Part shown: positions 29,995 to 38,662 of the stretch, piece after piece
Position numbering within the stretch: the first letter of the stretch is position 1
Layout of the letters: each line of letters opens with the position of its first letter
DNA from: Halanaerobium saccharolyticum subsp. saccharolyticum DSM 6643
GTDB lineage: Bacteria; Bacillota; Halanaerobiia; Halanaerobiales; Halanaerobiaceae
DNA: 64,000 nt
Direction: 5' to 3'
NCBI RefSeq assembly: GCF_000350165.1
Contig: NZ_CAUI01000021.1
Location: forward strand, 1 to 64,000
Position numbers and translations under genes: made by a program
The notes under the pieces: model-generated
The model's input: only the letters and a program-made list of their open reading frames with translations
Told to the model about the DNA's origin: nothing
Databases searched by the model: none

Positions 29995-30804
29995 ATGAAA
30001 AATAGTAATAGTTTAGAAATAAAGAATCTAAGCTCTCAAATTAACGGACAACAAATTTTAAATAATTTTAATTTAAAAATAAAAAAAGATAGTATTCATT
30101 CAGTCTTATTTAAAAATAAGCAGAGTAAAAATGAGTTATTAAAATTTTTAACAGCTAAAAAAGATTTTGAGAATGCAGAATTAATTATTGAGGGAGCAAA
30201 TATTAGCAGAGAGCAGCTTCAAAATTTAAATCAAAATAAAATTTACTTAATAGACCAATATTCGGCAGTTAATCCTGAAAAAGATCCACTAGGAGTTTTT
30301 CAATTCAATAAAAAAGGAAATACTGAAAAAAAATCTACAGTTTTTCCTGAAATGACGGTTGCTGAAAACATATTTTTTGGCAGAGAACCACTTAAATCTT
30401 TTTTGTTTTTTAAATCTATTGATAATCAGAAAATGGTTGAGCTAACAGAAGAACTAATTAGTCTGCTGACTATAGATTTATCACCAGACCAAAAAATGGT
30501 TGAATTGAGCCCATTAGAAAAACAGCTGGTAGCAGTGTTAAAAGCTCTTTCTTGTCGGGTAGAAATTTTAATAATTGATCAGGCAGTTGTTAATTTAGCT
30601 TCAGATAAAAAGAAAATATTTTTTAATTTTTTAAAAAAGTTAAAGGCAAAAGGAATCACTATAGTTAATTTTACTTCAGAAATCAAAGAAGTATTTATAA
30701 GTTCTGACTATGTTAGTGTATTAAAAGATGGTCAGAGTAAAGGGGAATACAAAGTATCTCAATTAGAATATAATGAGTTAGCCTTATTATTAATGGGGGA
30801 ATGA
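29995..30804 (+). CDS. degenerate ABC-type ATPase-like protein (predicted inactive)
   Basis: The fold and landmarks follow the N-terminal half of sugar-importer ATPases of the RbsA/MglA type: a late FPEMTVAENIFFGREP segment (117-132), a signature-like LSPLEKQLVAVLKAL (171-185) and a Walker B-like ILIIDQ (191-196). However, the Walker A position (38-47, LFKNKQSKNE) has lost the Gly-Lys-Ser core, and the catalytic Glu after Walker B is Gln, so ATP hydrolysis is unlikely. The frame is open over 269 aa with AGAAGGTGAAA before the ATG. No permease gene lies nearby. It may be a regulatory or scaffolding pseudo-ATPase. Confidence 0.7.
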   Translation: MKNSNSLEIKNLSSQINGQQILNNFNLKIKKDSIHSVLFKNKQSKNELLKFLTAKKDFENAELIIEGANISREQLQNLNQNKIYLIDQYSAVNPEKDPLGVFQFNKKGNTEKKSTVFPEMTVAENIFFGREPLKSFLFFKSIDNQKMVELTEELISLLTIDLSPDQKMVELSPLEKQLVAVLKALSCRVEILIIDQAVVNLASDKKKIFFNFLKKLKAKGITIVNFTSEIKEVFISSDYVSVLKDGQSKGEYKVSQLEYNELALLLMGE

Positions 30805-32678: not shown

Positions 32679-32707
32679 TTGACAAATTAAAATTAAAGGA
32701 ATATAAT
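32679..32707 (+). promoter_or_regulatory. promoter of the TetR/envelope operon
   Basis: TTGACA (32679-32684) and TATAAT (32702-32707) are spaced 17 bp, a consensus promoter. The two operator palindromes start two bases after the -10 box. Confidence 0.85.
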
Positions 32708-32708
32708 A

Positions 32709-32738
32709 TGACTACGAAGTCACATGACTATAAAGTCA
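32709..32738. promoter_or_regulatory. twin palindromic operators for the TetR regulator
   Basis: TGACTACGAAGTCA (32709-32722) and TGACTATAAAGTCA (32725-32738) are two near-identical 14-bp inverted repeats with centres 16 bp apart. They cover the predicted transcription start, so binding would block the promoter at 32679-32707. The regulator gene follows 45 bp downstream, which suggests autorepression. Confidence 0.8.
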
Positions 32739-32783
32739 TATTATTTCTGAAAACTAACATAAAATAAAAAAGAAGGTGAGGCA

Positions 32784-33422
32784 ATGCCTAAACAAACTTT
32801 TTTTAATCTTGAAGCTGAAAAGAAAAGCCGAATTATAGATGCTGCTTTAAAAGAATTTGCCGCTTATCCATATTTAAAAACGAGTATTAACAGAATAATT
32901 GAAAAGGCAGATATTTCTAAGGGAAGTTTTTATCAGTATTTTCAAAATAAAAAGGATCTCTATAAATATATTATTGATCAGGCAACAGCTGAGAAAATGA
33001 AATTTCTTTCTCTGAAATTACAGGATTATCAGAAACTGGAGTTTTTTGAGCTTTTAAGGAAGCTTTTTATTGCCGGCATTCAGTTTAAAAAAGAATACCC
33101 ATTATTTTCTGAAATTGGTAATAAATTGTTGAATGGAAATAATGAAAGACTGAAAGAAGAAATTTATGCTGATAGCCGGCCTAAAAGCAATGAGTTTTTT
33201 TTACAGTTATTAGAAGAAGCTGTTCATAAAGGAGAAGTTGATCCAGAGATTGACATTAAATTTACTGCTCATATTTTAACTGATTTTTCAATCAGTATTG
33301 TCAGTTATTTTTTTGAAAATCACAATCCTGATAATTTGGATGAAATTATGAAGTATGTAGATAAACTGCTTTATATTATGAAAAATGGTATAGCAAAGGG
33401 GGATAAAAATGTCACTAATTAA
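32784..33422 (+). CDS. TetR/AcrR-family transcriptional regulator
   Basis: The N-terminal helix-turn-helix (AALKEFAAYPYLKTSINRIIEKADISKGSFYQYFQNKKDLY, about 20-60) is typical of TetR proteins; the C-terminal half is a helical ligand and dimer domain. At 212 aa the length is usual. It begins a co-directional operon, overlapping the ABC ATPase gene by 14 bp. The likely operator pair is upstream. The inducer is unknown; membrane-active or lipophilic compounds would fit the envelope genes behind it. Confidence 0.9.
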   Translation: MPKQTFFNLEAEKKSRIIDAALKEFAAYPYLKTSINRIIEKADISKGSFYQYFQNKKDLYKYIIDQATAEKMKFLSLKLQDYQKLEFFELLRKLFIAGIQFKKEYPLFSEIGNKLLNGNNERLKEEIYADSRPKSNEFFLQLLEEAVHKGEVDPEIDIKFTAHILTDFSISIVSYFFENHNPDNLDEIMKYVDKLLYIMKNGIAKGDKNVTN

Positions 33423-34098
33423 ACTAATTGGGCTGGAAAAAATTTATCAACAGGGTAAAATAGAAGTGCCTGCTTTGAGAGGTATAGATATGGAGATTAA
33501 ATCGGGAGAATTCACAACTATCTTTGGTCCTTCAGGTTCTGGGAAAACTACACTTTTAAATATGATAGGCTGTCTTGATAAGTCAACGGCTGGAGAAATT
33601 ATTTTTGATGGTCATTCAATCAATGATCTAAAGAATAAAGAATTGGCAGAGATAAGACGCTACAATTTAGGTTTTGTTTTTCAGAGTTATAATTTAATAC
33701 CTGTTTTAACTGCTTTTGAAAACGTTGAATTTGCAATCAGATTAATAGATAAACACAGCAAAAAAGAAAGAAAAGATAAAGTTATGTCACTTTTAGAAGA
33801 AGTAGGACTTGGGGATATGGCTAACCGTCGTCCAAATGAACTTTCTGGCGGTCAAAAACAGAGAGTGGCAATTGCAAGGGCTTTAATTAAAGAACCAAAA
33901 CTTGTTTTAGCAGATGAGCCAACAGCAAATCTTGATTCGGAAACTAGTAAAGAGGTTTTAGAATTAATGAAAGAAATGAATCAAGAATTAAATACAACCT
34001 TTATTTTTTCAACCCATGATCCTCAAGTGATGGATTATGCCCGTCGCTTAATTGAAATTAAGGACGGAAAAATTAGTAAAGATCAGAGGAGGGATTAG
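33409..34098 (+). CDS. ABC transporter ATP-binding protein, LolD/MacB type
   Basis: A complete ABC ATPase of 229 aa has Walker A GPSGSGKTTLLN, Q-loop FVFQSYNLIPVLTAFEN, signature LSGGQKQRVAIARAL and Walker B LVLADEPTANLD. The FQSYNL and ENVE segments are characteristic of the LolD/MacB/FtsE group. It works with the two following permeases, and its stop overlaps the GTG that precedes the first permease. Confidence 0.93.
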   Translation: MSLIKLIGLEKIYQQGKIEVPALRGIDMEIKSGEFTTIFGPSGSGKTTLLNMIGCLDKSTAGEIIFDGHSINDLKNKELAEIRRYNLGFVFQSYNLIPVLTAFENVEFAIRLIDKHSKKERKDKVMSLLEEVGLGDMANRRPNELSGGQKQRVAIARALIKEPKLVLADEPTANLDSETSKEVLELMKEMNQELNTTFIFSTHDPQVMDYARRLIEIKDGKISKDQRRD

Positions 34099-34100
34099 TG

Positions 34101-35336
34101 ATGTTTTTTCTGAAAATGGCATTTAAAAATCTGACTCGTCACAAAAGAAGAACTCTGATCACTGCTCTGATAATTGCTTTTGCTATTTTAATTTATGTGA
34201 TGACAGAAGGCCTAATGTTAGGTATGACCGAGATGTCATTTGATAATATTATTAATTTAGAAAGTGGTCATCTGCAGGTAGCAGATCAGAGTTATTGGGA
34301 AGATAGAAAAGAACTTCCCTTAAAAAATTTAATAATACCTTCAGCAGAACTTGAAAATAAGATAAAAGAAACTGAAGGTTTTGAAGCTATGACAGAGAGG
34401 CTTAATTTTGCTGTTAATTTAAACAACGGAATAGACGAACTCCCGGTGACTGGAGTTGGGATTGATTTAAAAAAAGACAGCACTGTCTTTGAATTGGAAC
34501 AGTATCTAGTAGAAGGAAGAATGCCCAGACAGGCCAGCAGCGAAATTATAATGGGAGCAAAGCTGGCCGAATTAATGGAATTTAAGCTTGGAGATTATGC
34601 CGTAATGCTGATTAGAACAGAAGAAAAAACATTTAATACAATTGATGGAGAGATAGTAGGTTTATTTAACACTCCTCACCCAAGTTTAAACGAAAGCAAT
34701 GTCTTTTTGCCTTTATCTACCGCTCAAAATCGTTTAAATATAGAAAATAAAATTAGTCATTATGTAGTTAGATTAGAGGACCAGGATCAGGCAGTGGCTG
34801 CAGCAGAAAGTCTAAGTGAAAGCTTAGAATCACCTTTTAAAGCTTATTCTTGGAAAGATGCAGCCAGAAGTTTGGTAACTATGATTGAAATGCAGGATAT
34901 TGAAACACAGGTTGTACTGGCGGTAATCCTGACGCTAGCAGCAGTTGGAATTATCAACACAGTTATTCTATCTGCCTTAGAACGGATGGAAGAACTGGGA
35001 ATGATGAAAGCTCTGGGAATGCATGAAAGAGAAATTGTATATACCTTTATGGGAGAAGCGGCTGGTATAGGCTTTATTGGAGGTATAATGGGAATCATTA
35101 TGGGAATAATTGGACTTGCTATTTTCAATATTAATGGAATTGATATGTCTACCATAACGGCTGGGGGAGATATGAATTATGGGTTTCCTTTAACAGGTAC
35201 AATATATGCCGGCTGGGAAATTAATTCTTTTGTCTTTGTTTTTTTCTATGGAGTAGCAATTTCCGTTTTGGCAAGTGTTTTCCCTGCTTTATGGGCTGCA
35301 AGAAAAGACCCCGTAAAAGCAATTTATCATCGCTAA
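34101..35336 (+). CDS. ABC permease, FtsX/LolC-E type (first of pair)
   Basis: This has one N-terminal membrane helix (LITALIIAFAILIYVM), a large extracytoplasmic domain (about 45-270) and three C-terminal helices (VVLAVILTLAAVGIIN, GFIGGIMGIIMGIIGLA, FVFVFFYGVAISVLASVFPA). This is the LolC/LolE/MacB-like layout. The AARKDPVKAIYHR tail is typical. AGAGGAGGG lies 7 nt before ATG 34101, giving 411 aa. It pairs with the next gene. Confidence 0.88.
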   Translation: MFFLKMAFKNLTRHKRRTLITALIIAFAILIYVMTEGLMLGMTEMSFDNIINLESGHLQVADQSYWEDRKELPLKNLIIPSAELENKIKETEGFEAMTERLNFAVNLNNGIDELPVTGVGIDLKKDSTVFELEQYLVEGRMPRQASSEIIMGAKLAELMEFKLGDYAVMLIRTEEKTFNTIDGEIVGLFNTPHPSLNESNVFLPLSTAQNRLNIENKISHYVVRLEDQDQAVAAAESLSESLESPFKAYSWKDAARSLVTMIEMQDIETQVVLAVILTLAAVGIINTVILSALERMEELGMMKALGMHEREIVYTFMGEAAGIGFIGGIMGIIMGIIGLAIFNINGIDMSTITAGGDMNYGFPLTGTIYAGWEINSFVFVFFYGVAISVLASVFPALWAARKDPVKAIYHR

Positions 35337-35348
35337 GGAGGTTAGGAG

Positions 35349-36599
35349 ATGAAGTTTTTAATAAATATTGCTTTCAAAAATATGTTTAGAAACAAATTGA
35401 GGACTGTAGTTTCTATCCTGGCTATTGCCTTTGCAGTGCTGGTAATTGTTTTTACAAGGGGCTTAATTGATGGTATGATTGAGGATACTTATTCACTTTA
35501 TATCCACTATGATACAGGTCATATCAAAATAATTGATCAGGAATATGAACAAAAAGAAAAACTGCTTTCTTTAAATTATACTGTTAATGGTTTAGAAAAT
35601 AAGTCGCTAGCAGAGATGGAATCAGACTTAATTAGTCTAGAAGGAATTGAAATGGTAATTCCCCGGTTGAAATTTGGAGCGGCAGTAAGTACTGAAGAAG
35701 AATTAGTTCAGATGCTGGCCTGGGGAGTTGAGGGAGACAAAGAAATTCAATTTACCAATATCGGTCGTGAATTAACTACAGGTAGAATGGTAGAAGCCGG
35801 CAAAAGAGAAGTTGTGATGGGGACAGATTTGCTGGATAAAATTAATAGAAGTGTCGGCGAAAAAGTGACAATGGTCTATACTACAGCCTTCAGTTCATTT
35901 CAGGGAGCAACTTTTGAGATAGTTGGTAAACTAGAGAGTAATCTGCCTTTATTAAATGAACAGGTTGTTTTTATGCCACTTGATACGGCAAGACAGCTGT
36001 TGTATTTAAATGGAGAAAGTACAGAATTGCTTTTAGTGACTGATGATAGAGATCAGGTTATGAGCTATCTTCCTGCTGTTAGAAATTATTTAGATCAAAA
36101 TGGAGGAGAAAAGTATCTGGCCCAGAGCTGGAAAAATGGAAACAGCTTTATTCAGCTATTAGAAGTCAGTGAGACAATCTATAATTTTATTTATCTTTTC
36201 TTAGTCCTTTTATCCTCAATAGTAGTAATTAATACTCTTGTAATGATAGTTAAAGAAAGAACTCAGGAGATTGGAATGATGAGTGCACTCGGCCTAAAAA
36301 GTAGAGAAATTTTACAACTTTTTATTCTAGAAGGTTTTGCAATGGCAGTTATCGGCAGCTTTTTAGGAGCTCTTGGCGGAGGTGCTCTAAACTATTATTT
36401 ATCTAAAGTAGGTTTTGATTATAGTGCAGCTTTTGAAGATATTGATGTTTTGATGAATCCAATTATTTATCCGACCTATAAATTTGAGCATATGGTATTT
36501 GCTTTTATAATTGGAGTAGTTGTCACAACTTTAACTGCGATTATTCCGGCACGAAGGGCAGCAAAACTTGATCCAACTGAGGCTCTGCGTGAAATCTAA
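35349..36599 (+). CDS. ABC permease, FtsX/LolC-E type (second of pair)
   Basis: At 416 aa it has the same topology as the previous permease and a related sequence: N-terminal helix LRTVVSILAIAFAVLVIVF, periplasmic domain (about 40-275), then three helices and a PARRAAKLDPTEALREI tail. The pair plus the ATPase form a LolCDE-like or MacB-like complex that would pull lipoproteins or lipids out of the inner membrane. It follows the first permease by 12 bp. Confidence 0.88.
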   Translation: MKFLINIAFKNMFRNKLRTVVSILAIAFAVLVIVFTRGLIDGMIEDTYSLYIHYDTGHIKIIDQEYEQKEKLLSLNYTVNGLENKSLAEMESDLISLEGIEMVIPRLKFGAAVSTEEELVQMLAWGVEGDKEIQFTNIGRELTTGRMVEAGKREVVMGTDLLDKINRSVGEKVTMVYTTAFSSFQGATFEIVGKLESNLPLLNEQVVFMPLDTARQLLYLNGESTELLLVTDDRDQVMSYLPAVRNYLDQNGGEKYLAQSWKNGNSFIQLLEVSETIYNFIYLFLVLLSSIVVINTLVMIVKERTQEIGMMSALGLKSREILQLFILEGFAMAVIGSFLGALGGGALNYYLSKVGFDYSAAFEDIDVLMNPIIYPTYKFEHMVFAFIIGVVVTTLTAIIPARRAAKLDPTEALREI

Positions 36600-36679
36600 A
36601 ATCTAAAAGAACAGTTTTTCAATTTTGAGACAGAAAAATAAATTTTAATATAAAGGGTATTCAGAAAGGAGATAGAATT

Positions 36680-37462
36680 ATGTTTAATTATTTTAAAAAT
36701 CAAAAGCATAGAAAATCAAAAGTCTTATTTAATATTTTATTGTTTTTGATTATTTTAGTTATGGTCAACTTTTCTGCAGCGGCAGAGGACTTAACTGCAG
36801 AAGAAATAATTAACCGCCGAGATGAAAATGAATATATAATTACTGCTTATTCAGAGGCGGAAATGATTATTAAAAATAGTGGCAGAACTCAGACAAAAAC
36901 TATGCGCAGTTGGCAGGATGAAGAAAAAGCGCTGGCAGAATTCACAAATCCGCGAGATAGAGGAACCAGATTTTTAAAAAGAGATGATGATCTTTGGATG
37001 TTTTTTCCTCAGGCTGAGGATCTAGTTAAGATCTCAGGCCATATGTTAGAGCAGGGGATGATGGGTAGTGATTTTTCCTATCAGGATATGCTTGAATCTG
37101 ACAAGTTGACAGATCTTTATAACTTTGAAATTATTGCTGAAGAAGAATATAAAGGGAGACCTACCTATAAATTAGAAGGGGTAAAAGTTCCCGGTAAAGA
37201 GGTTAGTTATTACAGAAGAGTAGTCTGGATTGACAAAGAGAGATTTGTTGGTTTAAAAGAAGAGCTTTACGCAGAAAGTGGCAGACTGCTTAAAGAGGCT
37301 TATATTTTAGAGGTAGAAGAAATTGAAGGCCGCTGGTATCCAGTGCATATGGTAATGGAAAATAAACTGCGGCAGAATACAAGTACTGAATTTATAGTAA
37401 ATAAAATCGAATTTAACCCTGAATTGCCCGATAATATCTTTACTCTGGAAAGATTACGCTAA
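36680..37462 (+). CDS. LolA-like outer-membrane lipoprotein-sorting protein
   Basis: A signal peptide (about 1-36, hydrophobic NILLFLIILVMVNFSAAAE) precedes an about 225-aa periplasmic domain. The segments RDRGTRFLKRDDDLWMFFPQAEDLVKIS and GMMGSDFSYQDM are diagnostic of the LolA-like family called outer membrane lipoprotein-sorting protein. AGAAAGGAGAT precedes the ATG. Its place between an ABC transporter and a beta-barrel suggests a chaperone carrying cargo between the two membranes. Confidence 0.85.
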   Translation: MFNYFKNQKHRKSKVLFNILLFLIILVMVNFSAAAEDLTAEEIINRRDENEYIITAYSEAEMIIKNSGRTQTKTMRSWQDEEKALAEFTNPRDRGTRFLKRDDDLWMFFPQAEDLVKISGHMLEQGMMGSDFSYQDMLESDKLTDLYNFEIIAEEEYKGRPTYKLEGVKVPGKEVSYYRRVVWIDKERFVGLKEELYAESGRLLKEAYILEVEEIEGRWYPVHMVMENKLRQNTSTEFIVNKIEFNPELPDNIFTLERLR

Positions 37463-37558
37463 AATTTTAAAAAAAGAAAATGAAAAAGAAAATAAAAAAA
37501 GTAGATAATCTGATTAAAATAATAGTTTCGGCAAAGTTATGGGGAAGTGATTTTAAAA

Positions 37559-38662
37559 ATGAAATTTTCAACTAGGAGCCAGAGCTTTTTATTAATAATA
37601 TTGATCAGCTTGGTTATTTTATTTTCAAAGCCGGTGCTAACTGCTGATATTGGTGGTAAGGCTAGTTTGAACAGTAATTTAACTTATGCTGATTCAGAAC
37701 TGAATAATTCTCTGGCAGCAGAATTGGAGTTAGAATGGTATTTACCGTATGATTTTCCGCTCGACATTCAAAATCGGACTGTTATTAGCCTTGATGAAGA
37801 AGCTGAAGATCAAGTTGAACTCTGGTTTAAAAAGCTCTATTTAAGACAAAAGCTAGGTCCTCTAACTGTAAAATTGGGGAAACAGCCTGTTTCCTGGTCT
37901 TATGGAGCCTTAATTAATCCAGTTGATTACAGTTTGGGTGCAGAAAACTTAGAAGAAGAAAGTAGGGCTAAATATGTAAATGGAATTGAATTATACTATC
38001 CGATTAACTGGGGCAGTGGTTTGACTTTTGTGGCCTCTGACATAGATGGTAAAGAGCACAAATGGGCCTTAAGAGGAAGGACTACTTATAAAGGTTATGA
38101 TTTAAGTGCCAGTTATGTGCAGACTCCTGTGGCAGATAATGCTGATTTTGAACGTTATGGCCTGACAGCCAAAGGTGATCTTGGGCCGCTTGGAGTTTAT
38201 GGCGCTTATGGGCTCTGGCGGGATAGTGAAATTGACTATGATATCTATCAGCTTGGAGCAGATTACAGCTATCATTTTCTTGCCGGCAGCCAGCTTTTTC
38301 TGCAGGGGGAGTATTTAAGATTAGAAGGTGCAGCAGGAGATATTTCAGCTTTTGATTTTTTCAATCTTGGTACAGAAAATGGAGCAGAGCAGCCTGCTGC
38401 AGACTCAGGTTCTAGTTCTTTTGAAAATTTAGATTTTTTCAATACAAATATAAGTTATGAACTTGATGAGTTTTCTTCTATTGGAATTATGACAGTTAGT
38501 TATTTAGATGATGGCAGTACAATTTTCATCCCTAATTATTCTTATCTTTTTGGCAGCAATCTTTTACTTGAGCTGAGGGGCAGCATTGCCGCTGGTAAAG
38601 AAGATGAGGTGCTTGGTGGAGAGGCTAAAGCTGTAGAAATTAATTTAAGCTACACTTTTTAA
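37559..38662 (+). CDS. outer-membrane beta-barrel protein
   Basis: A signal peptide (to about residue 29, LIILISLVILFSKPVLTA) is followed by a strand-rich region with alternating hydrophobic and polar residues. The sequence ends NLSYTF, a C-terminal Phe signal used by the BAM machinery. A GKQPVSWSYGALINPVDYSL segment (about 105-125) resembles porin families with GRQ..W..G...NPVD motifs. From ATG 37559 it has 367 aa; a GTG four codons upstream is also possible. It is the last gene of the TetR operon and its likely outer-membrane endpoint. Confidence 0.8.
   Translation: MKFSTRSQSFLLIILISLVILFSKPVLTADIGGKASLNSNLTYADSELNNSLAAELELEWYLPYDFPLDIQNRTVISLDEEAEDQVELWFKKLYLRQKLGPLTVKLGKQPVSWSYGALINPVDYSLGAENLEEESRAKYVNGIELYYPINWGSGLTFVASDIDGKEHKWALRGRTTYKGYDLSASYVQTPVADNADFERYGLTAKGDLGPLGVYGAYGLWRDSEIDYDIYQLGADYSYHFLAGSQLFLQGEYLRLEGAAGDISAFDFFNLGTENGAEQPAADSGSSSFENLDFFNTNISYELDEFSSIGIMTVSYLDDGSTIFIPNYSYLFGSNLLLELRGSIAAGKEDEVLGGEAKAVEINLSYTF

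Follow-up and report, generated by a model that had tools for sequence, protein, structure and literature searches.

A TetR-controlled operon of Halanaerobium saccharolyticum as a putative accessory export line from an ABC pump through a LolA-fold carrier to an outer-membrane barrel

INTRODUCTION

Lol sorting in diderm Firmicutes is an open question. A cluster of LolA, LolC/E and LolD genes, found in most Halanaerobiales, was put forward as a Lol system by Antunes et al. (2016; PMC5007114). That cluster is very probably the operon described here or its ABC paralogues. The operon lies in a stretch of 64 000 nucleotides, hereafter the window, comprising positions 1 to 64 000 of contig NZ_CAUI01000021.1 of the halophilic diderm H. 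saccharolyticum subsp. saccharolyticum DSM 6643. An earlier note on this DNA had read the genes as an inner-membrane pump, a periplasmic carrier and an outer-membrane endpoint under TetR control. Is the operon a housekeeping Lol locus, or an inducible line for another cargo?

RESULTS

Gene order and transcription

Six genes, encoding a TetR regulator, an ATPase, two FtsX permeases, a LolA-like carrier and a barrel in the order described before, lie with their promoter at 32679-38662. The features are:

32679..32707, + strand: promoter TTGACA-17-TATAAT, 12/12 match to the sigma-70 consensus; a like arrangement lies 5' of most TetR orthologues read
32709..32722, + strand: operator palindrome 1, TGACTACGAAGTCA, 14 bp, starting one base past the -10; place and spacing conserved
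32725..32738, + strand: operator palindrome 2, TGACTATAAAGTCA, 14 bp, 16 bp on from palindrome 1; place and spacing conserved
32784..33422, + strand: predicted TetR-family autoregulator (PF00440, E 7e-14)
33409..34098, + strand: ABC ATPase of the LolD/MacB/DevA type (PF00005, E 3e-37)
34101..35336, + strand: FtsX-type permease 1, with FtsX and MacB_PCD domains (TIGR02212 LolCE, E 8e-33, below cut-off)
35349..36599, + strand: FtsX-type permease 2, with FtsX and MacB_PCD domains (TIGR02212, E 7e-38, below cut-off)
36680..37462, + strand: periplasmic LolA-fold carrier (PF17131, E 4e-58)
37559..38662, + strand: predicted outer-membrane beta-barrel, 18 strands, C-terminal Phe (AF2 pLDDT 80.6)

Permease 1 probably starts at ATG 34101, with GTG 34098 also possible, and the barrel probably at ATG 37559, which was preferred over GTG 37547 because of the ribosome-binding spacing. 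The TetR and ATPase genes overlap by 14 nt, the ATPase and permease 1 genes either overlap by 1 nt (GTG start) or are 2 nt apart (ATG start), and 12 nt separate the two permeases. The gaps to the carrier (80 nt) and to the barrel (about 84-96 nt) are longer, so that the earlier description of short gaps and overlaps throughout suits the last two genes less well than the first four. A check for separate promoters of the later genes found no strong + strand promoter in the intergenic gaps, nor was a forward terminator found there, which points to a single transcript as the likely arrangement. No substrate, biosynthetic, catabolic or lipoprotein cargo gene was seen in the operon. Elsewhere in the window, an ABC ATPase-like ORF lies at 29995-30804, with no Walker A motif evident by eye, and congeners carry extra genes nearby.

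Promoter and operators

The one promoter with two matching palindromic operators was confirmed: the palindromes are at the exact coordinates, and the arrangement is conserved in orthologues. Both palindromes read TGAC(N6)GTCA. Most TetR orthologues read, from Halanaerobium and other Halanaerobiales, have tandem palindromes with the same 16-bp register immediately 3' of the -10 of a near-perfect promoter; they are absent from two distant orthologues among those read. The arms are TGAC/GTCA in Halanaerobium and of TGAC or TGAA types elsewhere, and the middle bases are variable. Within the 2.87-Mb genome, palindromes 1 and 2 are the only matches to the operator with at most one mismatch. Since the register is kept in most orthologues and the sites are genome-unique at this threshold, the palindromes are beyond chance. 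The operon that encodes the regulator thus carries, at its promoter, the palindromic operators expected of a TetR autorepressor, and their conservation and uniqueness mark it, as judged from sequence, as a dedicated autoregulator. The further matches in the genome all carry three mismatches and do not exceed the count with a reversed-pattern control, so we claim no wider TetR regulon.

Pump

The best NCBIfam match of the ATPase is LolD (TIGR02211; 244.9 bits, below the cut-off of 307.75), and the permeases score 114.0 and 130.6 bits with the LolC/E model TIGR02212, against a cut-off of 362.45; neither LolD nor LolC/E is therefore present at a curated equivalog score. The nearest solved permease by sequence is LolF for both permeases, followed by LolC for permease 2; overall, LolC, LolE and MacB come next in varying order. 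Compared with LolC and LolF, permease 2 is short of a few residues along the stretch of the LolC hook hairpin, which binds LolA, in a weak part of the alignment. The best scores, with LolD and LolC/E, and these nearest relatives assign the pump to the LolCDE/MacB group of type VII ABC transporters; its two permeases differ from each other.

Carrier

The carrier has a hydrophobic signal segment at about residues 13-35 and, as read from the sequence, no lipobox Cys; it is thus a LolA-fold periplasmic protein without a lipobox, as in the known systems of pump, carrier and DUF1302 barrel. Its AF2 model (pLDDT 91.0) gives Z scores of 25-27 to 4z48 (DUF1329), 9tp6 (Porphyromonas gingivalis LolA3), 3buu and 3bk5, of at most ~15 to LolB and of ~12-14 to canonical LolA. 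The model places the carrier, whose family is PF17131 and not the canonical PF03548, in the LolA3/DUF1329 branch; the label 'LolA-like' holds for the fold and not for the canonical family. This placement makes no use of the LolA Arg43 and LolB Leu features, for which the model allowed only a count of strands. PF17131 also matches in archaea among the control genomes. Archaea lack a classical outer membrane, and the carrier family is therefore not tied to one.

Barrel

The barrel ends in Phe, as reported before, and its AlphaFold model has 18 strands. The model gives Z ~22 to the OprD/Occ porins and to the alginate exporter AlgE across the full strand range, which is consistent with a closed barrel, and the predicted fold resembles uptake porins as well as an exporter. 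Neither Pfam nor a profile search against PDB sequences gave a match for the barrel. With hhalign, it aligned to the barrels that neighbour paralogous carriers (L004, E 1e-21; L003, E 3e-21; L002, E 5e-7), two of which match DUF1302 (L003, E 5e-8; L002, E 9e-13); through the L002 and L003 barrels it is related to DUF1302.

Conservation of carrier loci

A scan of genome contigs gave 37 loci, and a PF17131-type carrier is present in 37 of the 38 genomes of Halanaerobiales. The order ATPase-permease-permease-carrier-barrel is found in most loci of Halanaerobiales and in some Atribacterota-labelled records; the gene order proposed earlier for a conservation check thus recurs through the order and beyond, and not in one strain only. 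Versions with an ABC pump and a carrier also occur in Atribacterota, Cloacimonadota, Bacteroidales, Neomarinimicrobiota and Margulisbacteria records, where the MAG labels may be wrong, and several more distant records have the carrier and pump with no recognised barrel.

The locus survey covered 60 PF17131 carrier loci in 24 genomes. A related barrel lies next or next but one 3' of the carrier in 55 of them. By pump, 33 loci have RND/MMPL genes and a barrel, 18 have ABC genes and a barrel, and four have ABC genes without a recognised barrel, all four belonging to one distant family (f4); the remaining five, four of which have a barrel, are at contig edges or unresolved. The carrier tree, made by a quick method, with long branches and with distant rows found by using the window's carrier as query, and hence to be read with caution, joins the 31 ABC-linked carriers in one supported group and leaves the RND-linked carriers outside it.

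The genome itself has two paralogous carrier-barrel loci, G000:C22:137790-138593 (L002, L059) and G000:C18:37553-38326 (L003, L060); one adjoins an MMPL/RND pump and the other has TetR and an MMPL-like gene. TetR genes lie near many RND-type carrier-barrel loci of the order, which contradicts the earlier remark that a LolA-like protein in an inducible operon is unusual. Two congeners (G011 and G013) carry a second, more distant ABC-type copy (L062 and L070) that falls with a different family of the order in the tree, which suggests transfer or an old duplicate. In L008 (10024-10870), an MntA-like nucleotidyltransferase and HepT pair (Pfam) lies between the barrel and PspC genes, and pairs alike, judged by size and place only, are seen in L004, L005 and L006. 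The L008 pair was considered as part of the system and rejected, these being unrelated genes.

Absence in close relatives

Three congeners and one related genus (G010, G014, G018 and G022; sites L115, L116, L117 and L118) lack the six-gene block at the syntenic site. Between DnaB/PspC and MocA/USP the six genes are gone, and the neighbours that remain are DnaB with portions of the PspC side and of the MocA/USP side; G014 is a single contig. None of these four genomes has a close carrier orthologue. The LolC/E model TIGR02212 had no match in G014, G018 or G022, and a single match in G010; the contig concerned has no carrier match. A related carrier-barrel pair is retained in all four, with an RND pump visible in three. 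The block is dispensable across species, and its absence in close relatives is expected of an accessory function.

Canonical LolA (PF03548) was found neither in this genome nor in nine relatives, which include all four block-less ones, and this genome has no LolC/E pair that we could find besides that of the operon. Lnt is present here and matches in all four block-less relatives, below the model cut-off in G014. The earlier contrast between an inducible operon and a housekeeping Lol locus was right as to TetR control, and presumed a Lol locus of which this genome shows neither PF03548 nor another LolC/E pair.

DISCUSSION

We favour, at slightly better than even odds (about 55%), a reading of the operon as an accessory line, under inducible control, that exports a putative lipid-like or otherwise hydrophobic molecule across the envelope. 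It is best read as the ABC counterpart of systems that combine an RND/MMPL pump, a LolA-superfamily protein and a DUF1302 barrel, and that have paralogues in the same genome. TetR, bound to the two operators beside the -10, would keep its own operon repressed until released by a ligand, as the conservation of the site suggests. The ATPase with FtsX1 and FtsX2 would, going by their family, take the substrate out of the inner membrane's outer leaflet and load the LolA3-type carrier, whose modelled fold could shield the hydrophobic part of a cargo across the periplasm. From the near-constant pairing of carrier and barrel, the carrier would then deliver to the co-encoded 18-stranded barrel and not to a LolB lipoprotein. 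Families, folds and conserved order all support the pump, carrier and endpoint scheme of the earlier note. Of the cargoes it listed (lipoprotein, lipid or toxic compound), the last two stand; lipoprotein is less likely, given that close relatives do without the block. The RND precedents (PMC6394551, PMC10866462) and the dispensability favour a hydrophobic non-protein cargo, and lipoprotein cargo, efflux and inward transport are given lower weight. Several observations stand against this reading: the operon has no substrate or biosynthetic gene, the barrel is like uptake porins as well as an exporter, the growth phenotype on Tween 20 of the Pseudomonas putida genes described below would also fit uptake, and the four ABC loci of family f4 have no recognised barrel.

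That the operon is the lipoprotein-sorting Lol system of Halanaerobiales (Antunes et al. 2016), with the barrel replacing LolB, we consider unlikely, although the ATPase and permeases match LolD and LolC/E/F best, the genome has Lnt and no alternative LolA or LolC/E pair, and the available part of that paper suggests it (PMC5007114). All three pump subunits fall below the curated Lol cut-offs, and a dedicated TetR is odd for a constitutive need. A housekeeping system should be kept in relatives of the same envelope, whereas four lack the block cleanly and keep their Lnt matches; three of these are also without TIGR02212 matches and all four without PF03548. The clean absences at the syntenic site led us to reject housekeeping Lol as the main reading. 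The carrier, moreover, belongs with LolA3, and in P. gingivalis the interaction between LolA3 and LolB is only very weak (PMC13103446).

The domains of both permeases, the place of MacB among the nearest solved structures and a mode of control typical of efflux could bring to mind a MacAB-TolC-type pump for drugs or toxic compounds, in which the carrier would serve as an atypical adaptor. This is improbable: the operon has neither a MacA-type adaptor nor a TolC-type duct, its ATPase and two permeases are separate where MacB is fused, a LolA-fold protein is a soluble carrier and not a hairpin adaptor, and the barrel is porin/AlgE-like. On gene content (MacA adaptor, fused MacB), the MacAB-TolC identity was rejected. 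The line might also run inwards, with the barrel importing a hydrophobic nutrient or removing misplaced lipid and the carrier bringing it to the inner membrane; the Z score to the OprD/Occ uptake porins would fit this. To our knowledge, however, the known FtsX/MacB/LolCDE family members act outwards or as signal relays, and it is on this knowledge of the ABC family that the presumed outward direction rests. The P. putida DUF1302, DUF1329 and RND genes needed for growth on Tween 20 (PMC10866462) speak for import, whereas the operon has no catabolic genes and Ame is described as efflux (PMC6394551); we hold inward transport to be very improbable.

More broadly, and as a tentative proposal on which we would put less than even odds, the LolA3-type carrier and the 18-stranded DUF1302/AlgE-like barrel may form one delivery module to which ABC and RND pumps are each coupled. 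Diderm Bacillota and other deep lineages would thereby have inducible lines that bring lipid to the outer membrane, with the barrel, not LolB, as endpoint. One carrier-barrel pair would tie ABC- and RND-driven systems together. A cluster that is very probably this one was a published suggestion for Lol; the links to TetR and to a barrel, and the finding that close relatives lack the block at one constant site, weaken that suggestion and make it testable.

Comparison with known systems

Literature searches on LolA-like proteins of diderm Firmicutes and Halanaerobium and on the gene combination turned up no other useful source beyond the systems compared here. The cluster of Antunes et al. likewise has a LolA homologue with LolC/E and LolD, together in one cluster conserved within the same taxonomic order, whereas the operon here is dispensable and its carrier is not PF03548; the part of that paper available to us makes no mention of TetR, tandem operators, a barrel, RND paralogues or absences (PMC5007114). 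Escherichia coli LolCDE-LolA-LolB shares the ABC subunit layout and the LolA fold, but the operon here has no LolB lipoprotein, has a barrel and TetR, and its carrier is far from canonical LolA. P. gingivalis LolA3 (9tp6) and the DUF1329 protein 4z48 are the nearest solved folds to the carrier; unlike here, the portion of the source at hand (PMC13103446) does not establish a pump or a barrel as their partners. Deletion of LolA3 in Flavobacterium johnsoniae gave no observed phenotype (PMC11885536).

The independently described Borrelia cluster BBJ23-29 (PMC13078400) likewise unites a MacB-like ABC permease, a separate ATPase, a LolA-like carrier and an outer-membrane barrel, but it has a homodimeric permease, an Omp85-type barrel and TPR chaperones, and is plasmid-borne. 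Castellaniella defragrans AmeABCD, for monoterpene efflux (PMC6394551), and the P. putida set, in which PP_0765 (DUF1302) and PP_0766 (DUF1329) are needed on Tween 20 with the efflux transporter PP_2018/PP_2019 (PMC10866462), likewise comprise an inner-membrane pump, a LolA-fold periplasmic protein and an outer-membrane barrel, theirs being DUF1302. They differ in their RND/MMPL pump, where the operon here has a type VII ABC transporter and no RND/MMPL pump; its barrel lacks their Pfam match, and its carriers form a separate group.
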